Shown piece by piece: positions 9,205 through 37,983 of a stretch of 64,000 bases of DNA. Both the position numbers and the translations under genes were made by a program. Within the stretch, counting starts at the first letter, position 1; every line of letters starts with the position of its first letter. The notes beneath the pieces are model-generated. The model saw only the letters and a program-made list of their open reading frames with translations. It searched no databases and was not told the DNA's origin. Origin of the DNA: Arthrobacter sp. MYb229 (GTDB taxonomy: Bacteria; Actinomycetota; Actinomycetes; Actinomycetales; Micrococcaceae); NCBI RefSeq assembly GCF_002975405.1, contig NZ_PCPS01000007.1, forward strand, positions 62,001 through 126,000. The letters run 5' to 3'.

Positions 9205-9570
9205 GGGGATGATCGGTTTCGACGGTGTGAGTCGCGACAGATGAAGCGGGCCGAGGATGCAAAGTTATCTCGTAAACGCTCTTTGCAAAACAATAAGTGC
9301 CGACTCAAAGCGCACTGACTTCGCTCTCGCTGCCTAAGCAGCCAGACAGTCCGTAAGCCAGGGGATGCTATCGCCCCTGTACCTTACGTCATTTAGATAG
9401 CCCCTGTATCCAGCGGCCGTTACCGCTGTTGGGTACATATTTTGGTAACTGTGCCTGGATCAACCACATGTTTGCGTGATGGTTGGGGCAGAGAAAATCC
9501 GCAGCAAACTGCGCCCGGAGAAGACCTGGCAACACCACATCGGACGGGAGTTCAATTCTCCCCATCTCCA
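9205..9570 (+). ncRNA. ssrA: transfer-messenger RNA (tmRNA)
   Basis: The 5' end GGGGATGATCGGTTTCGACG and the 3' end, with a T-arm GTTCAATTC and then CATCTCC plus A, form the tRNA-Ala-like domain: GGGGAUG pairs with CAUCUCC. CCA is not fully encoded and must be added. The reading frame starts with resume codon GCC at 9299 and runs to TAA at 9335-9337, encoding the degradation tag ADSKRTDFALAA, a typical actinobacterial tag ending in ALAA. Pseudoknot-like repeats fill 9338-9530. smpB lies just upstream and a strong terminator just downstream. Confidence 0.97.
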
Positions 9571-9578
9571 CGTATTTT

Positions 9579-18025: not shown

Positions 18026-21000
18026 CTAGCGGGCGAAGGCCTGCTTCAGCAGCACCGCGGCTTCGGCGTCGTGACGCTTGGCGGTACCGGCAGAGGTCGC
18101 GGCCGAGGCCGGACGCGAGACCAGGGTGACCTTCTTCTCCAGCTCCGGGGCGACGTACAGGCCGAAGAACGGCCATGGGCCCTGGTTGGCTGGTTCGTCC
18201 TGAACCCACGAAACCGTGGCGTTCGGGTACTTGGCCAGCTCGGCAGCGATCTGCTCGGCCGGAGCCGGGTAGAGCTGCTCGACGCGGACGATCGCGACCT
18301 TCTCGTCCTGCGCCTTGGTGCGCGCGGCGAGCAGATCGTAGTACAGGCGACCGGAAACCAGCAGCACCTTCTCCACGGCATCCGCGTTGGCGATCGACTT
18401 GTCGCCGATGACCTCCTGGAAGCCGCCGGTGGTGAACTCCTCCACCGAAGTGGCCGCGGCCTTCAAGCGAAGCAGCTGCTTCGGGGTGAAGACGATCAGC
18501 GGCTTGCGTGGCCGGGCGTAGGCCTGGCGGCGCAGCAGGTGGAAGTGGTTGGCACCGTTCGAAGGCTGGGCGACCACCATGTTGTTCTCCGCGCACATCT
18601 GCAAGAAGCGTTCGATGCGCGCCGAGGAGTGGTCCGGCCCCTGGCCTTCGTAGCCGTGCGGCAGCAGCATCACCAGGGAGGTGGACTGCGACCACTTCTG
18701 CTCGGCCGAGGAGATGAACTCGTCGATCACGGTCTGCGCGCCGTTGACGAAGTCACCGAACTGCGCTTCCCACATCACCAGCGCATCCGGGCGCTCCACC
18801 GAGTAGCCGTATTCGAAGCCGAGGGCCGCGTATTCCGAAAGCAGCGAGTCGTAGATCCACAGCGGTGCCTGGCCTTCGCTCAGGTGGTGCAGCGGGTACC
18901 ACTCGTTGTCGTTCTCGCGGTCGTGGAAGACCGAGTGGCGCTGCACGAAGGTGCCGCGGCGCGAGTCCTGGCCTGCCAGGCGAACCGGCACGCCTTCCAT
19001 GGACAGCGAGCCGAGGGCCGCCAGCTCGGCGAAGCCCCAGTCGATGCCGCCTTCGCGGGACATCTTCTCGCGGCGTTCGAGCAATGCCTTGAGCTTGGTG
19101 TGCATGGTGAAGTCTTCGGGCACCGCCAGGTGGGCCGCGCCGATCTTCGCCAGCGTCTGCTCGCTGATCGCCGATCCGCGGGCGCCGTCGACGGTGTTCT
19201 CGTCGGCGGCCTGCGCGAAAGGCTTCTCCAGGTCGTTGATGGTCGAACCCGGGGTGATGATCGGGATCGGGGAGGTCTGGGCGGCATGCGTCTCGGAGAA
19301 GATGCGCTCCAGGTTCTCCTTGTATTCGGCCAGCACGTTCTCGGCTTCTTCCGCGGTGATGTCCCCGCGGCCGACGAGGGCCTCGGTGTACAGCTTGCGG
19401 GTGGAGCGCTTCGCCTCGATCAGGTTGTACATGATCGGCTGGGTCATCGAGGGGTCGTCGCCCTCGTTATGGCCGCGGCGGCGGTAGCAGATGAGGTCGA
19501 TGACCACGTCCTTGCCGAACTTCTGGCGGTACTCGAAGGCCATCTGGCCCACGTGCACCACTGCCTCCGGGTCATCCCCGTTGACGTGGAAGATCGGTGC
19601 CTGCACGGTGCGTGCCACGTCGGTGGCGTACACCGAAGAGCGCGAAGAACTCGGAGCGGTGGTGAAGCCGATCTGGTTGTTCACGATCACGTGCACGGTG
19701 CCGCCGGTCTTGTAGCCGGGCAGCTGGCTCATCGCGAGCACCTCGGAGACGACGCCCTGGCCGGCGAAGGCCGCATCGCCGTGCACCAGGATCGGCAGCA
19801 CGTTGTTCTTCGAGCCCATGCGGTCCAGCTTCGCGCGGGTGATGCCCTCGAGCACCGGATCCACGGCTTCCAGGTGCGACGGGTTGGCCGCCAGGTAGAC
19901 CTTGGTGGCGTTGCCGGCGTCCGAGGTGTAGGAGCCCTCGGTACCCAGGTGGTACTTCACGTCGCCCGAACCCTGGACGGAGCCCGGGGTTGCGGTGCCT
20001 TCGAATTCGCGGAAGACCTGTGCGTAGGTCTTGCCGGCGATGTTTGTCAGCACGTTCAGCCGGCCGCGGTGCGCCATGCCGATGGCCACCTCGTCCAGCT
20101 GCTCGTCGGCGGCGTCGGAGATGATCGCGTCGAGCAATGGAATCAGCGACTCACCGCCCTCCAGGGAGAAGCGCTTCTGGCCGACGAACTTGGTCTGCAA
20201 GAAGGTTTCGAAGGCCTCGGCGGCGTTCAGCTTGCTCAGGATGCGCAGCTGCTCGTCGCGGGTCGGCTTCGCGTAGCCGGACTCCAGCTTCGCCTGGAAC
20301 CACTCGCGCTCTTCCGGGTTCTGCAGGTGCATGTACTCGGTGCCGGTGGTGCGGCAGTAGGCGTCGCGCAGGATGCCCAGCACGTCGCGTAGCAGCGCGC
20401 GGTTCTTGCCGCCCAGCCCGCCGGCAACCCATTCGCGATCCAGATCCCACAGGGTCAGCCCATAGGTCTGGATGTCCAGGTCCGGGTGCTTGCGCTGGAC
20501 GTATTCCAGCGGGTTGGTGTCGGCCATCAGGTGGCCGCGCACGCGGTAGGAGTTGATCAGGTGCTGGATGCGCGCGACCTTGTTGACCGCCAGGTCGACG
20601 TCGACCTGGTTGTCGATGGCCCAGCGCACCGGCTCGTAAGGGATGCGCAGCTGCTCGAAGATCTCATCATAGAAGCCCTGCTCGCCGAGCAGCAGCGCCT
20701 CGACCAGCTTCAGGAATTCGCCCGAACCGGCACCCTGGATGACGCGGTGGTCATAGGTGGAAGTCAGCGTGATGTGCTTGCCGATGCCCAGGGACGCGAC
20801 GGTCTTCTCGGATGATCCGCGGTACTCGGCCGGGTATTCCAGCGCGCCGACACCGATGATCGCTGCCTGGCCCTTGGACAGGCGCGGCACCGAGTGCACG
20901 GTGCCGATGCCACCGGGGTTGGTCAGCGACACGGTGGTGCCGGAGTAATCGTCGGCGGTCAGCTTGTTGTTGCGGGCCCGCTTGATCAGGTCCTCGTAGG

Positions 21001-21799
21001 TGGCCCAGAACTCGTTGAAGCTCAGGGTCTCGGCGACCTTGATATTCGGGACCGCGAGCATGCGCGAGCCGTCCGGCTTTGGCATGTCGATGGCGATGCC
21101 GAAGTTCACGTGGGCCGGCTGGACGGCGGTCGGCTTCTTGTCGATCACATCGTAGGTGACGTTCATCGACGGGATCTGCTTCAGCGCGCGAATCACGGCG
21201 AAGCCGATCAGGTGGGTGAAGGAGATCTTGCCGCCGCGGGCGCGCTTGAGGTGGTTGTTGATGACGATGCGGTTATCGATCATCACCTTGGCCGGAACCG
21301 CGCGCACGGTGGTGGCGGTCGGCACGGTGAGGGAAGCATCCATATTGGTTGCGATGGCCTTCATTGGCCCGCGCAACGGGGTGCGCTTCTCCTCGCCGTA
21401 CAGCCCGGTGGAAGGCGTTGCCTTCGGAGCCTGGGCCGGAATCGGAGCAGTCTTCGGCGCTGCTTCCTTTGCTGCTGGTTCGGCTTTGGCCGCGGCCGGC
21501 GCGGGAGCCGATTCGGTGCTGCGCGCCTCGGCCGCGGCGCGTGGTGCGCCCTGGCCGTTGGCTACAGGAGCAGGTTTCGCCGCCGCTGCCGCCGCCGGCG
21601 GCGCGCTCGGCGCGGCCTTGGCCGCGGATGCTGCCGGTGCTGCCGGTGCGTTGTTTTCGGTGGTGAGGGACTCGAAAATGTCCCACCATTTCTTATCGAC
21701 CGAGTTCTTATCGACGAGATACTGCTGGTACAGCTCGTCTACTAGCCACTCGTTTCCACCAAACTCTTCAGTAAGTCGGTGGTGTGCTTGCTCTGGCAC
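18026..21799 (-). CDS. kgd: multifunctional 2-oxoglutarate metabolism enzyme Kgd (SucA with E2-like domain)
   Basis: Actinobacterial Kgd fuses a succinyltransferase-like (E2o) catalytic domain without lipoyl domain to the thiamine-diphosphate E1o. It acts as 2-oxoglutarate dehydrogenase E1, decarboxylase and 2-hydroxy-3-oxoadipate synthase in the TCA cycle. In the roughly 1257 residues I see the N-terminal FGGNEWLVDELYQQYL helix, an Ala/Pro-rich linker (about 55-120), the E2 domain with SFTHLIGFAVIRAL and DHRVIQGAGSGEFL, then E1 motifs GMAHRGRLNVLTNIAGK, HGDAAFAGQGVVSE and VNNQIGFTTAP. GTG 21799 has GAGG nine bases upstream; a TTG at 21805 is too close to it. The partner E2/E3 are not in this window. 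Confidence 0.96.
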   Translation of the reverse strand: MPEQAHHRLTEEFGGNEWLVDELYQQYLVDKNSVDKKWWDIFESLTTENNAPAAPAASAAKAAPSAPPAAAAAAKPAPVANGQGAPRAAAEARSTESAPAPAAAKAEPAAKEAAPKTAPIPAQAPKATPSTGLYGEEKRTPLRGPMKAIATNMDASLTVPTATTVRAVPAKVMIDNRIVINNHLKRARGGKISFTHLIGFAVIRALKQIPSMNVTYDVIDKKPTAVQPAHVNFGIAIDMPKPDGSRMLAVPNIKVAETLSFNEFWATYEDLIKRARNNKLTADDYSGTTVSLTNPGGIGTVHSVPRLSKGQAAIIGVGALEYPAEYRGSSEKTVASLGIGKHITLTSTYDHRVIQGAGSGEFLKLVEALLLGEQGFYDEIFEQLRIPYEPVRWAIDNQVDVDLAVNKVARIQHLINSYRVRGHLMADTNPLEYVQRKHPDLDIQTYGLTLWDLDREWVAGGLGGKNRALLRDVLGILRDAYCRTTGTEYMHLQNPEEREWFQAKLESGYAKPTRDEQLRILSKLNAAEAFETFLQTKFVGQKRFSLEGGESLIPLLDAIISDAADEQLDEVAIGMAHRGRLNVLTNIAGKTYAQVFREFEGTATPGSVQGSGDVKYHLGTEGSYTSDAGNATKVYLAANPSHLEAVDPVLEGITRAKLDRMGSKNNVLPILVHGDAAFAGQGVVSEVLAMSQLPGYKTGGTVHVIVNNQIGFTTAPSSSRSSVYATDVARTVQAPIFHVNGDDPEAVVHVGQMAFEYRQKFGKDVVIDLICYRRRGHNEGDDPSMTQPIMYNLIEAKRSTRKLYTEALVGRGDITAEEAENVLAEYKENLERIFSETHAAQTSPIPIITPGSTINDLEKPFAQAADENTVDGARGSAISEQTLAKIGAAHLAVPEDFTMHTKLKALLERREKMSREGGIDWGFAELAALGSLSMEGVPVRLAGQDSRRGTFVQRHSVFHDRENDNEWYPLHHLSEGQAPLWIYDSLLSEYAALGFEYGYSVERPDALVMWEAQFGDFVNGAQTVIDEFISSAEQKWSQSTSLVMLLPHGYEGQGPDHSSARIERFLQMCAENNMVVAQPSNGANHFHLLRRQAYARPRKPLIVFTPKQLLRLKAAATSVEEFTTGGFQEVIGDKSIANADAVEKVLLVSGRLYYDLLAARTKAQDEKVAIVRVEQLYPAPAEQIAAELAKYPNATVSWVQDEPANQGPWPFFGLYVAPELEKKVTLVSRPASAATSAGTAKRHDAEAAVLLKQAFAR

Positions 21800-22049
21800 G
21801 TGCAACGCCTCTTCCCTGATTTCTACGTTGTTCTAGCTTGAGCCGGTGGTAGCCCGAGGACGTGAATAATGGCCACCGATACTCACAAGATTTCTAGACC
21901 TGCGCCCCAGTCTAGTGACTTTTCCAAGGGATTTGCCACGAGTCGTCGGGAATCTCACGAAAGTGGCGCTTAACACTGCCCATTTAGCTTGTTTCCCGTA
22001 CCGCTGGTCGTGCGTGCGTGGCTATTGTGCGCGAAGCGGGTTCATTGGA

Positions 22050-22055
22050 TAGAAT
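22050..22055 (+). promoter_or_regulatory. candidate -10 box for the CNNM operon
   Basis: TTGGATAGAATG contains TAGAAT. TTGTGC about 19 bases upstream is a poor -35. Transcription from about 22062 would give a leader of about 170 bases. Confidence 0.4.
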
Positions 22056-22061
22056 GAATCG

Positions 22062-22230
22062 CACTATGGAATCTCATTCTCCTAGCCGGACCGCCGCCCG
22101 CGGGCGCAGTGCCGGCCACCTTTGCCATCGTCCGGAAGGCTCCGCCTCCCAATTGGAGCCTTCTAGTTGCCGCTTACGGCAACATAGACGCAATTTAACC
22201 CATTCACCCCGGGGGCGTGGTTAGCCGCCC
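22062..22230 (+). other. structured 5' leader of the CNNM/CorC-type operon
   Basis: Three stems in a row fill the leader: CCGGAC (22086-22091) with GTCCGG (22130-22135) enclosing a GCCCGCGGGC palindrome; GAAGGCTCC (22135-22143) with GGAGCCTTC (22155-22163); and GTTGCCG (22166-22172) with CGGCAAC (22177-22183), loop CTTA. No short peptide frame fits. Stems placed before genes for probable divalent-cation transporters make a regulatory RNA plausible. It does not match any riboswitch I can name with confidence. The rest of 21800-22061 holds nothing I can support beyond promoter-like sequence. Confidence 0.45.
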
Positions 22231-23553
22231 ATGGAATGGATCTACATACTTTTCGGCCTGCTGCTGATTCTGGGCACAGGCTTCTTCGTGGCCGTGGAAT
22301 TCTCCCTCGTTGCCCTCGACAAGAGCACCGTTCAACAGGCCATCGATCGCGGCGAACGCGGTTCCAAGGCGCTGTTGCAGTGCCTGACCTCGCTGTCCAC
22401 CCAGCTTTCCAGCTGCCAGCTGGGCATCACCCTGACCACCTTGCTCACCGGCTATGTGCTCGAACCGGCGATGAGCAAGCTCCTGGCACCGGTGCTCGAG
22501 AACATCGGCGTGGTGGGAGCCAGCTCCAAGGCCATCTCGGTGGTCATCTCCATGGTGATCGCCACGCTGCTCTCGATGCTGATCGGCGAGCTGGTGCCCA
22601 AGAACCTGGCCATCGCGAAGGCCATGGCCGTGGGCAAGGCGCTGGCCCGCCCGCAGCTGATCTTCACCGCCATCTTCAAGCCCGCCATTGTGCTGCTCAA
22701 CGGCTTTTCGAACTCGGTGCTGCGCAAATTCTTCGGGCTGGAGGCCAAGGAAGAAATTTCGGCCGCCCGCAGCGCCCAGGAGCTCGCCTCGCTGGTGCGC
22801 CGTTCGGCGGAACTCGGCACGCTGGACATCCAAACCGCGCGCTTCGTGGAATCGACCATCGAATTCTCCGAACGCACCGCGGCCGATGTGATGACCCCGC
22901 GCACCTCGATGTCCACCATCGAGTCCGAGGCGGCACTATCCGAACTGATCCTGATGAGCGCGGACACCGGGTTCTCCCGGTTCCCGGTCACCGAGGGATC
23001 GAGCGATGACATCCAGGGCATCTGCCATGTCAAGGCCGTGGTCTCGGTGCCGCGCGAACGCCGCGCGGCGCTGCAGGTCGGCGAATTTGCGCGCGATGCG
23101 CTCTACGTGCCGGAAACCATCCACCTAGACGTGCTGCTCGAGCAGCTGCGCGCCGCGGAATTCCAGGTGGCCATCGTGATGGACGAGTACGGCGGAACCG
23201 CCGGGCTGGTCACCCTGGAAGACCTGGTCGAAGAGATCGTCGGAGAGGTCTCCGATGAGCACGACGAGGACGAGGAAGAGGCGGTCACCCAGCCGGACGG
23301 CAAGTGGCTGTTCCCCGGCATGTACCGCCCGGACCAGGTCAACGAACACTTCGCGAGCGATATCATCGCCGACGATTCGGCCTACGACACCATCGGCGGG
23401 TTCATGCTCTCCGAGCTGGGGCGTTTGGCCGAACTGAACGATGCGGTGCAAACCGAGGCGGGAATTTTCACGGTGACCGAGCTCGATGGCCGCCGGATCG
23501 CCCAGGTGCGCTTCGAACCTGCCACGCACACCAAGGAGGAGTCCAATGAGTGA
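22231..23553 (+). CDS. CNNM/CorC (hemolysin-C-like) membrane protein with CBS and CorC domains
   Basis: The 440 residues comprise the DUF21/CNNM membrane domain (about 1-200, with FFVAVEFSLVALDKS and SSCQLGITLTTLLTGYVLEP), a CBS pair (about 215-335, with RFPVTEGSSDDIQGICHVK and IVMDEYGGTAGLVTLEDLVE), and a C-terminal CorC/HlyC domain (about 350-430). Related proteins export or control magnesium or cobalt; the name hemolysin is historical. The gene starts an operon of two with overlapping frames. Which ion is moved cannot be read. Confidence 0.9.
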   Translation: MEWIYILFGLLLILGTGFFVAVEFSLVALDKSTVQQAIDRGERGSKALLQCLTSLSTQLSSCQLGITLTTLLTGYVLEPAMSKLLAPVLENIGVVGASSKAISVVISMVIATLLSMLIGELVPKNLAIAKAMAVGKALARPQLIFTAIFKPAIVLLNGFSNSVLRKFFGLEAKEEISAARSAQELASLVRRSAELGTLDIQTARFVESTIEFSERTAADVMTPRTSMSTIESEAALSELILMSADTGFSRFPVTEGSSDDIQGICHVKAVVSVPRERRAALQVGEFARDALYVPETIHLDVLLEQLRAAEFQVAIVMDEYGGTAGLVTLEDLVEEIVGEVSDEHDEDEEEAVTQPDGKWLFPGMYRPDQVNEHFASDIIADDSAYDTIGGFMLSELGRLAELNDAVQTEAGIFTVTELDGRRIAQVRFEPATHTKEESNE

Positions 23554-24616
23554 TTTCATCGGGCTGGCCTGGCTGGTCGTGCTGCTGGCGGTCAATGCAT
23601 TTTTCGTCGCCGGCGAATTTGCGGTGATGTCCGCGCGCCGCTCGCAGATCGAGCCGCTGGCCGACGAGGGAAACAAGCGGGCGAAGATCGCGCTGTATGC
23701 GATGGAGCACGTCTCCATCATGCTCGCGGTCTGCCAGCTGGGCATCACCGTCTGCTCGCTGCTGATCCTGAACATCTCCGAACCGGCGCTGCACCACCTG
23801 CTGGAGGTGCCGATGACGGCGCTGGGCATGCCGGAGCAGATCGCGGACACCGCCGCCTTCCTCATCGCGCTGGTGCTGGTGACCTTCCTGCACGTGACCT
23901 TCGGCGAAATGGTGCCGAAGAACATCTCGGTCTCCGTCGCCGACAAGGCGGTGCTGGTGCTGGCCATGCCGCTGGTGGGCGTGGCCAAGGTGCTCAAGCC
24001 GATCATCTCGATGCTCAACGGCGCGGCGAACCTGTTCCTGAAGCTCTTCGGCGTCGAGCCGCAGGACGAGGTGACCAGTTCCTACACCGCAGCGGAGGTC
24101 CGCTCGATCATCGACACCTCCTCCCAGGAGGGCACGCTGCGCAACGAGCATGCGCTGCGGCTGACCAAGGCGCTGGAATTCTCCACCGTCACGGCCGCCT
24201 CCTGCATGGTTCAGGTCGATGACCTGTTCACCCTGGAGTGGGGGCAGACCACCGCGCGCGAATTCGAGAAGAAGGTCGGCAAGACCGGCTACTCGCGCAT
24301 GCTGATCACCCGCGACGAGGTGCCGGTGGGCTACTGGCATGTCAAGGACGTGATGCTGATCGACGACGCGCACTCCACCGCGCCGCTGCGCGACCTGCCG
24401 CTGCACCCGCTGGGCGTGGTCAAGCAGGACGCGGAAATCGAGGAGGCGCTGGAGAGCATGCGCCAGGAGGGCAACCACCTCTCGGCCGTGGTCGACGAGG
24501 CGGGGCACACCATCGGCGTGCTGTTCCTGGAGGACATCATCGAGGTGCTGGTCGGCGAGATCAGCGACTCGACGCAGAAGCGCCACGCTCCACCGAGCAA
24601 GGCGAACGGCAATTAG
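23546..24616 (+). CDS. CNNM/CorC-like membrane protein lacking the CorC domain
   Basis: The ATG at 23546 overlaps the previous stop by 8 nt and has AAGGAGGAG upstream. The 356-residue product repeats the plan of its neighbour: DUF21 membrane domain (NAFFVAGEFAVMSARRSQIE, QLGITVCSLLILNISEPALH) and two CBS motifs (YSRMLITRDEVPVGYWHVKD, SAVVDEAGHTIGVLFLEDII). It stops right after the second CBS, with no CorC domain. Paired CNNM genes of this long/short type are common in actinobacteria, and the products may act as a heterodimer. A strong terminator follows. Confidence 0.88.
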   Translation: MSDFIGLAWLVVLLAVNAFFVAGEFAVMSARRSQIEPLADEGNKRAKIALYAMEHVSIMLAVCQLGITVCSLLILNISEPALHHLLEVPMTALGMPEQIADTAAFLIALVLVTFLHVTFGEMVPKNISVSVADKAVLVLAMPLVGVAKVLKPIISMLNGAANLFLKLFGVEPQDEVTSSYTAAEVRSIIDTSSQEGTLRNEHALRLTKALEFSTVTAASCMVQVDDLFTLEWGQTTAREFEKKVGKTGYSRMLITRDEVPVGYWHVKDVMLIDDAHSTAPLRDLPLHPLGVVKQDAEIEEALESMRQEGNHLSAVVDEAGHTIGVLFLEDIIEVLVGEISDSTQKRHAPPSKANGN

Positions 24617-24719: not shown

Positions 24720-25553
24720 ATGAGCACATCCCCGATTGTCACCTTCGACGCCGCACGCCTGGCCTTCGGGTCCCGGGTGCTGTGGGAGGGGCTGGACTTG
24801 CAAGTGCAGCCCGGGGAGTTCTTGGCGGTGCTCGGGCCCAACGGCTCGGGCAAAACCAGCTTCATCAACACCATGCTCGGCACCACGGCCCTGAATGCCG
24901 GTACCGTGTCCATCGCCGGGGACCCGGTGCGCCGCGGCTCGGAGCTGGTGGGCCTGATCCCGCAGCAACGCCCCTTCGGCGACAACGTGCCCCTGCGCGC
25001 CCGCGACCTGGTGGCCCTGGGCGTGGACGGCAACCGCCCCGGCATCCGGCTGGCCCGCCGAAAGGTTCACGCGAAGGTGGACGAACTGCTCGAATTGGTC
25101 GGCGCGCAGGACTACGCGCACCGCCCGGTCTCCGATCTTTCCGGCGGCGAACAGCAGCGGCTGCGCGCCGCGCAAGCGCTCGCGGGGGATCCGCGGGTGC
25201 TGCTCTGCGACGAGCCGCTGCTCTCCCTGGACCTGCACCACCAGCAGGCGATCAGCGAGGTGATCCACCGCCAGGCCGTGCAGCACGGGGCCGCGGTCAT
25301 CTTCGTCACCCACGAGATCAACCCGATCCTGCCCTATGTGGACCGGGTGCTCTACCTGGCCGAGGGCAAATTCCACCTGGGCAGCGTCGACGAAGTGATG
25401 CGTTCCGAGGTGCTGAGCGCGCTCTACGGCGCCCCGGTGCAGGTGTTGCGCGTCAACGGGCGGATCGTGGTGCTCAGCGGCGACGGGAACCGGCAGCTGC
25501 CGCCGGACGGGCATGAGCACCCCGAAGACCACGCACTAGAGACCGGAAGGTAG
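24720..25553 (+). CDS. metal (zinc/manganese-type) ABC transporter ATP-binding protein
   Basis: The 277-residue ATPase has Walker A GPNGSGKTS, the Q-loop in LIPQQRP, signature LSGGEQQ, Walker B VLLCDEPLLSLD and H-loop VTHEINP. With a ZnuB-like permease seven bases downstream and a Fur-type regulator gene converging on it, it is most likely the ZnuC-like motor of a zinc (or manganese) importer. The Walker B contains Cys before Asp, seen in this subfamily. The GDGNRQLPPDGHEHPEDH tail has metal-binding histidines. There is no binding-protein gene next to it. Confidence 0.85.
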   Translation: MSTSPIVTFDAARLAFGSRVLWEGLDLQVQPGEFLAVLGPNGSGKTSFINTMLGTTALNAGTVSIAGDPVRRGSELVGLIPQQRPFGDNVPLRARDLVALGVDGNRPGIRLARRKVHAKVDELLELVGAQDYAHRPVSDLSGGEQQRLRAAQALAGDPRVLLCDEPLLSLDLHHQQAISEVIHRQAVQHGAAVIFVTHEINPILPYVDRVLYLAEGKFHLGSVDEVMRSEVLSALYGAPVQVLRVNGRIVVLSGDGNRQLPPDGHEHPEDHALETGR

Positions 25554-25560
25554 GCGCGCG

Positions 25561-26418
25561 ATGAATTTCGCAGACTTCCTGGAGCGCACGCTGAATTTTG
25601 ATGACTACGCGCAGCTGCTGCCGCTGGTGACCAACTCGCTGATCGCCGGGGCGGCGCTGGGCATCGTCGGCGGGCTGATCGGCATCTTCATCATGATGCG
25701 CGATATGGCCTTCGCGGTGCACGGCATCGCCGAACTCTCCTTCGCCGGGGCGGCCTTTGCGCTGCTCATCGGCGTGGATGTGGTCACCGGCTCGGTGTTC
25801 GGCTCGCTGGTCGCGGCGCTGGTGCTCGGCGTGCTGGGCACCCGGGCCAAGGACCGCAACTCCATCACCGGGGTGCTGATGCCCTTCGGCCTGGGGCTCG
25901 GGATCCTGTTCCTCTCGCTCTACGAGGGGCGCAGCGCGAATAAGTTCGGCCTGCTCACCGGGCAGATCGTCGCGGTGGACGATGTGCAGCTTTCCGGCAT
26001 GCTGGCCCTTTGCGCGGTGGTGGTGCTCGCGCTGCTGGTCGTCTGGCGGCCGCTGACCTTCGCCTCGGTGGACCCGGTGCTGGCCAACGCCCGCGGGGTG
26101 CGCACCGGCGGGCTGTCGATAATCTTCATGGTGATCCTCGCCCTGGCGGTGGCCGTCGCCATCCAGGTGGTCGGCGCGCTGCTGGTGCTGGCGCTGCTGA
26201 TCACCCCGGCCGCCGCGGCCCTGCGGATCAGCTCCAACCCCGGGCTCACGGTGTTCCTGGCGATTCTCTTCGCCGAAATTTCGGTGCTCGGCGGGATCCT
26301 GCTGGCGCTGGCCGGCTCGCTGCCGATCAGCCCCTATGTGACCACCATATCCTTCGTGATCTACCTGGTCTGCCGGGGGATCGAGGCGCTGCGCTCCCCG
26401 CGCAAGCACCTGGTCTAG
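25561..26418 (+). CDS. metal ABC transporter permease (ZnuB-like)
   Basis: The 285-residue protein has about eight transmembrane helices and the family landmarks RDMAFAVHGIAELSFAGAA, the GVLMPFGLGLGILFLSL segment and ALLVLALLITPAAAALR, the coupling region of ABC-3 (ZnuB/MntB/TroC) permeases. It moves divalent zinc or manganese across the membrane using the upstream ATPase. The gap to the ATPase gene is seven bases with GGAAGG as ribosome-binding site. A pair of GC-rich hairpins separates it from the convergent zur-like gene. Confidence 0.88.
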   Translation: MNFADFLERTLNFDDYAQLLPLVTNSLIAGAALGIVGGLIGIFIMMRDMAFAVHGIAELSFAGAAFALLIGVDVVTGSVFGSLVAALVLGVLGTRAKDRNSITGVLMPFGLGLGILFLSLYEGRSANKFGLLTGQIVAVDDVQLSGMLALCAVVVLALLVVWRPLTFASVDPVLANARGVRTGGLSIIFMVILALAVAVAIQVVGALLVLALLITPAAAALRISSNPGLTVFLAILFAEISVLGGILLALAGSLPISPYVTTISFVIYLVCRGIEALRSPRKHLV

Positions 26419-26484
26419 CCGAGCGGGCCACCGGCCCGCTCGGCGCAGCGCAAAGGCCGCCCACCGTAAATGGCGGGCGGCCTT
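26419..26484. terminator. two hairpins between convergent permease and zur-like genes
   Basis: CCGAGCGGGCC (26419-26429) pairs with GGCCCGCTCGG (26433-26443); AAGGCCGCCC (26453-26462) pairs with GGGCGGCCTT (26475-26484). Short T runs flank the second. One probably serves each direction. Confidence 0.75.
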
Positions 26485-26509
26485 CGCCTTTGGGGTTCGA
26501 TGGAGCCGT

Positions 26510-26914
26510 TCAGCTGGCCTTGCGGCGGCACTCTTCGCAGAGCCCGTAGATTTCCACGGTGTGCTCCGGGTCGGTGAAGCCGTTTTCCTGCGCGACGCGC
26601 GCGGCCCAGCGCTCCACCGCCGGGGCGAGCACCTCCACGGTCTTCGAGCACACCCGGCAGACCAGGTGGTGGTGGTGCACCTCGGTGAGGCACTGGCGGA
26701 AGCGCGCCTCGCCGTCGCCGCTGCGCAGCACGTCCACCAGCCCGTCGTCGGCCATGGACTGCAAGAGCCGGTAGACGGTGGCCAGCGAGACCTTCTTCTG
26801 CGTATCCACCAGCCAGCGGTGCAGTTCCTGGGCGGTCGCAAAATCATCGACCTCGCCCAAGGCCTCGGCCACCGCGAGCCGCTGCTTGGTCACGCGGGTT
26901 TCTGGCTGCACCAT
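26510..26914 (-). CDS. zur: Fur-family transcriptional regulator, probably Zur
   Basis: From ATG 26914 the 134-residue protein shows the Fur winged helix (TKQRLAVAEALGEVDDFATA, VSLATVYRLLQSMADDGLVD), the HHHHLVCRVCSK zinc-site segment and a second CxxC in GLCEECRRK, which together make the structural zinc site. Convergence with a ZnuCB-like importer suggests the zinc-responsive type, repressing uptake when zinc is plentiful. I could not see a classical Zur operator in front of either gene. A longer start at 26989 would add 25 residues with no family match. Confidence 0.82.
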   Translation of the reverse strand: MVQPETRVTKQRLAVAEALGEVDDFATAQELHRWLVDTQKKVSLATVYRLLQSMADDGLVDVLRSGDGEARFRQCLTEVHHHHLVCRVCSKTVEVLAPAVERWAARVAQENGFTDPEHTVEIYGLCEECRRKAS

Positions 26915-27039
26915 CGACTTGCACCATTCCTTCTGAAAAGCTGTTTCGGGCGAAACGCGTTCGGCCCCGTTCCACCCAATTTTAGCCAACTTTTCGGCCG
27001 AGTGCGTGTCAGTGGCTGGCCGAGGGCGCGCCGTCGGCC

Positions 27040-37907: not shown

Positions 37908-37983
37908 TGGTGCCCCTGAAAGGAATCGAACCTTCGGCCTTCTGCTCCGGAGGCAGACGCTCTATCCACTGAGCTACAGAGGC
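37908..37983 (-). tRNA. tRNA-Arg (anticodon CCG)
   Basis: The cloverleaf reads on the minus strand: acceptor GCCTCTG with CAGGGGC, D-arm GCTC/GAGC, anticodon stem TCTGC/GCAGA with loop CTCCGGA (anticodon CCG, codon CGG), T-loop TTCGATT and encoded CCA (37908-37910). It is divergent from argS, whose enzyme charges it. Confidence 0.96.

Follow-up and report, generated by a model that had tools for sequence, protein, structure and literature searches.

A very probable upstream open reading frame with an acid-proline core, coupled to a CNNM gene pair and conserved across the Micrococcaceae

The window, that is, the whole stretch of 64,000 nucleotides of Arthrobacter sp. MYb229 that was analysed, contains two overlapping genes of CNNM type, preceded by a leader whose other flank is a kgd-type gene. 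The locus comprises the following features, of which the upstream open reading frame (uORF), the promoter element and the helices are predicted.

18026-21805, minus strand: kgd-type 2-oxoglutarate dehydrogenase gene, the other flank of the leader
22050-22055, plus strand: putative -10 box TAGAAT, 10 nt 5' of the uORF ATG
22066-22224, plus strand: putative near-leaderless uORF of 52 aa, MESHSPSRTAARGRSAGHLCHRPEGSASQLEPSSCRLRQHRRNLTHSPRGRG, with stop codon TAG at 22222-22224
22069-22071, plus strand: uORF codon 2 (Glu), a position with D or E in 102/115 uORFs
22085-22090, plus strand: 5' arm of predicted helix P1, pairing with 22111-22116 (97.2% of cells paired)
22111-22116, plus strand: 3' arm of P1; inner helix at 22095-22098/22103-22106
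22156-22170, plus strand: core codons GAG CCT TCT AGT TGC (E31-P-S-S-C35)
22213-22217, plus strand: 5' arm of the predicted start hairpin, GGGCG, a ribosome-binding-site-like G run
22226-22230, plus strand: 3' arm of the start hairpin, adjoining the CNNM ATG
22231-23553, plus strand: CNNM/CorB-type gene 1, with domains CNNM, CBS and CorC_HlyC
23546-24616, plus strand: CNNM-type gene 2, with domains CNNM and CBS; its start overlaps the end of gene 1

The domain matches of gene 1 (PF01595, 1.7e-37; PF00571, 3.7e-09; PF03471, 1.5e-16) place it in the CNNM/CorB-CorC family, and its best solved chains are 4hg0 (CorC) and 7m1u/7m1t, which are labelled as a hemolysin with CBS domains and which we take to be archaeal CorB. 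An earlier note on this DNA had placed the leader before a pair of CNNM/CorC-type genes, which the open reading frames and domain matches confirm. The pair is probably a Mg2+/Co2+ transport operon; by analogy only, its CNNM proteins would be Mg2+ exporters. Downstream of the operon, at 24720-26989, an ABC transporter ATPase is followed by a membrane ORF that by eye resembles an ABC permease, with a Fur-family-like ORF, also recognised by eye, on the opposite strand, and the region resembles a zinc uptake locus. On the far side of the leader, a 773-aa open frame at 18071-20392 (plus strand) runs antisense to the kgd-type gene and is most likely a consequence of high G+C content.

In the earlier note, positions 22062-22230 were read as a three-stem structured leader resembling the 5' half of an M-box, and a metal-responsive RNA was suggested. 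The M-box (ykoK) riboswitch, presumably RF00380, stands before Mg2+ transport genes. The complementary segments of the three stems exist (CCGGAC/GTCCGG, AAGGCTCC/GGAGCCTT and GTTGCCG/CGGCAAC), and the words AGGCTCC, TGGAG, TGCCGC and AGACGC are present in the order described. The minimum-energy fold of 22062-22230 (z = -2.13; 4/200 shuffles equally stable) contains stems 2 and 3 and lacks stem 1 as described. Across 18 Glutamicibacter leaders, however, the stems are not conserved as RNA: 57.6% of cells are paired (54.6, 82.6 and 31.2% for stems 1, 2 and 3), a level that 500/500 shuffles match or exceed, and no pair is changed on both sides. Little of stems 1 and 3 is thus preserved, and stem 2 is kept partly, without compensatory change. 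The few short words shared with the M-box are not accompanied by a match to its covariance model, as cmscan of the whole window at the gathering threshold returned only a tmRNA (9205-9573, plus strand) and a tRNA gene (37911-37983, minus strand), and a scan of 21900-22400 up to E 10 gave five sub-threshold matches (E 2.3-8.1), none of them M-box. Membership of the M-box or another Rfam family was rejected for want of any covariance-model match, as were the three stems as conserved RNA, given their 57.6% pairing and lack of double-sided changes. The three-stem, M-box-like basis falls because both computations proposed in the note, the covariance-model match and the compensatory changes, came out negative, whereas the description as a leader that is conserved, looks regulatory and belongs to a probable Mg2+/Co2+ transport operon stands. 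In the aligned leaders, the main feature appears to be a uORF that had been missed, rather than the stems, and what is worth keeping is a coupled uORF with an acid-proline core, not a three-stem metal riboswitch.

A different set of helices is better kept in these leaders. Helix P1, its inner helix and the start hairpin are together paired in 97.4% of cells, against 93.4% in shuffles (0/500 reach this value). P1 is nearly invariant, the pair 22090/22111 being UG in 8 leaders, CG in 7, UA in 2 and unpaired in 1. In the start hairpin, 2/5 pairs show changes in both arms, each pair in 7 sequences, giving 14 double-changed cells against 4.6 in shuffles (0/500); no excess is seen for the number of double-changed pairs (2 vs 1.8, with 398/500 shuffles attaining it) or for the number of pair types (6 vs 5.9; 404/500). 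Covariation support is therefore moderate, as pair numbers and types lie at shuffle level, the signal comes from counts of cells in related leaders, and the structure was partly read off the same sequences on which it was scored. On these alignments, the start hairpin nevertheless appears better supported than the three stems. Start-proximal folding has a mean z of -1.58 in the 18 Glutamicibacter leaders and -0.55 over all 114 loci, against +0.24 in a control stretch inside the CNNM gene (48 loci); it is clearly strong only in Glutamicibacter and elsewhere slightly above shuffles. RNAalifold also suggests a candidate long-range pairing of 22061-22066 (GCACUA), which surrounds the uORF start, with 22164-22170 (UAGUUGC), which lies within the core and just past it; the bases of both segments are almost invariant in Glutamicibacter and so give no covariation by which to judge it.

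The start of the uORF lies 10 nt after the TAGAAT box, which reads TAGACT in the remaining 17 Glutamicibacter leaders, and the probable transcript start is therefore only a few nucleotides from the uORF ATG. Its stop codon sits in the loop of the predicted start hairpin and ends 6 nt 5' of the CNNM ATG, a spacing that differs from the RTGA overlap of the mycobacterial coupled class. The core E31-C35 occupies a position common to all 18 Glutamicibacter species, and its codons are common to them as well, except for one base in one species.

The frame was then followed through related genomes. The window was assigned to Glutamicibacter (Micrococcaceae, Micrococcales), the name borne by most of the closest named loci, a few of them being labelled Arthrobacter sp. 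The genus set comprised matches in 18/18 Glutamicibacter genomes; L019-L024, repeats of six genus genomes, were omitted. The family set of 122 loci combined these 18 genomes with 104 of 114 further family genomes. Ten family genomes were unused: one had the CNNM gene at a contig edge, two had it broken or partial, two lacked a good orthologue, and the other five belong to one genus whose matches reach just 41-43% identity. Under a strict rule, the uORF has its ATG 8-11 nt downstream of TAnnnT, comprises 20 codons or more and stops between -20 and +25 of the CNNM start; this rule recovers the uORF architecture in 112/122 family loci, and a looser rule in 115/122. The -10-like hexamer 8-11 nt 5' of the uORF ATG in 112/122 loci is recognised from sequence only. 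The stop codon begins 5-2 nt 5' of the CNNM start in 81/122 loci, and uORF lengths range from 23 to 105 aa. The strict rule is satisfied by 34/7320 dinucleotide shuffles and 13/1458 reverse-strand pseudo-starts. Among crude sets of other ORF-like genes, it holds for 1/277 in 400 kb of one Glutamicibacter genome and for two of a 42-gene set from the window, namely the CNNM leader, which appears there before an overlapping ORF of different frame, and one site inside what reads as an upstream ABC-type gene. As the leaders are related to one another, these counts are not independent. Ten of the 122 loci fail the strict rule and seven the looser one; inspection of these seven by eye showed that L038 and L044 have a different leader, that the -10 box of L046 deviates, that in L079 an early stop is followed by a second start and that in L088, L089 and L091 the frame continues into the gene. 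From this distribution, the uORF is very probably real and coupled to the CNNM gene.

Beyond the family, under a rule allowing a spacer of 6-11 nt and at least 15 codons, the uORF is found in 35/49 loci of other Micrococcales families and in 0/35 loci from other families of the class, against 20/4200 mononucleotide shuffles of these 84 loci, which are a subset among the best matches listed and may include CNNM paralogues. At several loci from those other families of the class, coupled frames of a different kind are seen. In one Micrococcales family (f17: L137, L147, L159, L160, L264, L265, L270, L271 and L276), the rule finds the uORF in 0/9 loci; by eye, the CNNM gene at several of them seems itself leaderless, starting directly after a TAGGAT box. 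In family f36, several of L161, L163, L165-L167, L169, L170, L172 and L174 have a short ORF of the type MKDSDDAGCSS...VDR after a GGAAGGGATC site, with a stop that overlaps the CNNM start, which by eye is an acidic leader of another make.

Most of the uORF peptide appears to drift under weak constraint. Pooled over 18 groups chosen by the analyst and covering 84/115 uORFs, pN/pS comes to 0.75 for the reading frame and to 1.02 and 0.97 for the two alternative frames; of the three values, that of the reading frame is the smallest in 15/18 groups and exceeds 1 in 2/18, and 151/199 pairwise gaps are multiples of three, as against 48/199 that are not. Acid-proline neighbours are in excess (260 vs 179.8 in 2000 residue permutations; sd 11.7, maximum 221), with no enrichment of 'PP' alone (49/115 uORFs vs 57.7 permuted). 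A broad core, [DE]x?P[PSFC][SPR] with x as D, E, H, Q, R or K, is found in 85/115 uORFs and missing from 30/115. The narrow core [DE]P[PS][SRTPC] occurs in the coupled frame of 68/122 family loci (179 coupled frames), against 3/181 uncoupled and 4/366 antisense frames, and in 24/84 loci of other families (110 coupled frames), against 6/137 and 10/252. Examples are LEPSSC in the window genus, SEPSSP, ADHPPP, DDQPPS, MDDPPSC, PDDPPSRR and MGEPPST; the core occupies residues 31-34 in the window genus and residues 2-6 in the MDDPPS forms.

Some of the same genomes carry a separate CNNM paralogue, about 45% identical, with a putative leaderless uORF of its own that begins MDDPPSH or MDDPPTH; the rule finds it in L301-L307, and in L310 the peptide is present with the -10 box absent by rule. 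Exact scans of 100 genomes placed the MDDPP[ST]H-type start directly 5' of the CNNM paralogue at 8/8 sites (reversed pattern: 1 match), and the MDSxSR start before CNNM at 11/12 sites, the twelfth lying at a contig end (reversed pattern: 0 matches). By these comparisons, the acid-proline core appears to be frame-specific and to recur before the CNNM paralogue and in other families. A third kind of coupled-looking uORF was noticed by eye before CNNM paralogues in L308, L309, L312 and L314 and in L311, L313 and L315, after G-rich ribosome-site-like sequences, with starts such as MDASGDSR... and MSTPGDSPG... and with GAC AGT codon pairs.

The best explanation of these observations is a model, to which we give even chances, in which completion of the uORF gates translation of the CNNM gene and the core serves as a checkpoint for ribosomes, with Mg2+ as the likeliest signal. 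Ribosomes would load at or near the mRNA 5' end on the ATG at 22066 and translate a peptide mostly free to vary, apart from the acid-proline core (E-P-S-S in the window; EPPS, DPPS or DHPPP elsewhere), at which they would slow or drop off. Termination would take place within the ribosome-binding site of the CNNM gene or next to it; with the uORF stop in the hairpin loop, a terminating ribosome should open the start hairpin and could restart on the CNNM ORF, so that CNNM translation would depend on ribosomes reaching the uORF stop. Since low Mg2+ would favour drop-off on such nascent chains, plentiful Mg2+ would let ribosomes complete the uORF and make the exporter, whereas under scarcity of Mg2+ the uORF would be aborted. 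The transcription start, translation, pausing or abortion, reinitiation and the Mg2+ signal are steps that we infer, and they differ in strength: a checkpoint role of the core is somewhat better than an even bet, and Mg2+ as the signal, proposed by analogy, is tentative. The conserved coupled frame, its core and the start hairpin of the genus can be read from the compared leaders.

The analogy draws on several systems, described here from excerpts of the papers cited. Completion of the uORF mgtL sets downstream expression of the Mg2+-transporter gene mgtA, and acidic and proline residues of MgtL (EPDP) are reported to hinder its translation in a Mg2+-dependent manner (PMC11282234, PMC11552253). 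At the motif level at which they were compared, mgtL of Salmonella and E. coli and the window uORF are alike as short acidic/proline uORFs in Mg2+-transporter leaders; in mgtL, however, the completed uORF turns an importer off through Rho-dependent termination, whereas the window uORF has a stop that abuts or overlaps the gene, so that completion should turn the gene on. An MgtL-type leader for intrinsic ribosome destabilisation (IRD) would be a translated short uORF with acidic or proline residues within about its first 30 positions; set beside it, the compared sequences show a conserved open frame and the acidic residue 2 noted above, but in the window genus the core begins only at residue 31, whereas the acidic effects described in E. 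coli fall within the first 30 residues (PMC11282234). In mgtQ (mgtCBRU, Salmonella), Asp2 and Glu5 are reported to hinder translation of a tiny ORF and control the ribosome-site hairpin of a Mg2+ transporter gene, ribosome destabilisation itself not being demonstrated for mgtQ (PMC8092293). Its likeness to the window uORF lies in the acidic ORF and the ribosome-site hairpin; it differs in being 8 aa long, in lying between two genes and in its opposite output, less mgtQ translation giving more mgtB.

CorC-domain genes of Salmonella and E. coli provide a second line of comparison. In Salmonella, high Mg2+ induces both corC and mgpA, the latter only if the pH is neutral or alkaline; an N-terminal IRD sequence is ascribed to corC in work cited there, and yoaL overlaps mgpA (yoaE), with the yoaL start codon required for full MgpA translation (PMC12421838). 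The likeness extends to CorC-domain genes and, for mgpA, an overlapping leader ORF, but the membrane domain of MgpA is TerC, unlike the CNNM domain of the window gene, and the excerpt of PMC12421838 gives no motif or signal for YoaL. S. aureus requires MpfA, a protein resembling CNNM, when Mg2+ is high (PMC6711546). By these precedents, a uORF translated to its end at high Mg2+ would yield the exporter when it is needed.

A simpler explanation is constitutive coupling, in which the leaderless uORF would be a mere ribosome entry site for the CNNM start, with no sensing and the peptide a by-product. That most of the peptide is only weakly constrained (pN/pS 0.75) is in its favour, and so are mycobacterial leaderless coupled small ORFs, described without sequence conservation in the excerpt of PMC4633059, in which a small ORF at the mRNA 5' end has a stop overlapping the next start. 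The mycobacterial class is genome-wide, however, whereas the window type belongs to one gene family and its core recurs over many genera. The frame-specific core in 68/122 loci, the acidic residue 2 in 102/115 uORFs, the 8/8 exact MDDPP[ST]H-type matches before the CNNM paralogue and the almost fixed EP[SP][SR] codons would not be expected of a by-product, and we regard constitutive coupling as unlikely, albeit the strongest of the alternatives.

The codons themselves are unusually constrained. At 63 EP[SP][SR] sites, Glu is always GAG (63), followed by CCT (50) or CCC (13), by TCT (36), TCC (23) or CCG (4), and by AGT (51) or AGA (12), with AGC and AGG at 0/63 sites; the 45 sites outside Glutamicibacter show the same picture, and in the outgroup families the core codons are looser. 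Such near-fixed codons exceed what a peptide signal needs and point to selection at the codon or RNA level; the nascent-peptide model does not explain them. No base-pairing partner for them was found by eye in the printed sequences of other genera. They could instead be the object of control, with CCY, TCY and AGU/AGA sensing the state of a tRNA (Pro/Ser/Arg charging or modification) rather than Mg2+ through the nascent chain. The constancy of GAG-CCY-(UCY/CCG)-AGU/AGA at 63/63 sites would fit such sensing, as would the scarcity of AGU elsewhere (12% of other uORF Ser codons, with AGC at 17%; 3% in the CNNM stretches counted) and the interchange of Ser and Arg at the core while AGW is retained. 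However, other families have TCT, AGC or CGT at that place, several uORFs carry DHPPP with CCG codons instead, and we know of no link between CNNM and amino-acid supply, which makes control by specific codons improbable.

Somewhat less probable still is a cis-acting RNA element, an idea to which the earlier note had given another form; here P1, the core block and the start hairpin would together make up a riboswitch or a site for a protein. Pairing of P1, inner helix and start hairpin in 97.4% of cells (0/500 shuffles) is what such an element would show, as is the conservation of two leader blocks through third codon positions in Glutamicibacter; yet the leader has zero Rfam matches, the near invariance of P1 leaves little covariation, other families keep the coupled core without the P1 sequence, and the three stems described earlier fail. 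That the uORF product is a functional small protein partnering CNNM is highly improbable, since, for all its conserved co-occurrence with CNNM, four peptides scanned gave no credible Pfam/NCBIfam match (best E 0.61), lengths vary from 23 to 105 aa with near-neutral pN/pS, and no long hydrophobic stretch was seen by eye.

Gating by completion of the uORF may be placed in a wider frame. It is possible, although we consider it doubtful, that these leaders form a new, widespread class in Actinomycetota of Mg2+-gated, coupled and often leaderless uORFs with a [D/E]-P-[P/S]-S core, in which the core would let ribosomes pass at high Mg2+ only and so turn a CNNM exporter on, and which would be a mirror image of mgtL of independent origin. 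Among the matches listed for open-licence PMC articles, no title or abstract beginning describes a uORF before CNNM genes in Actinomycetota. To our knowledge, few regulatory nascent chains have been described from bacteria other than Proteobacteria and Firmicutes. Because it is conserved throughout one family of bacteria and recurs in others, the uORF offers a directly testable cis-element; if the gating model is true, Mg2+-dependent ribosome stability would be used here in a sense opposite to that of mgtL, and a peptide motif with an unusual codon constraint would be added to the regulatory nascent chains of that small group.
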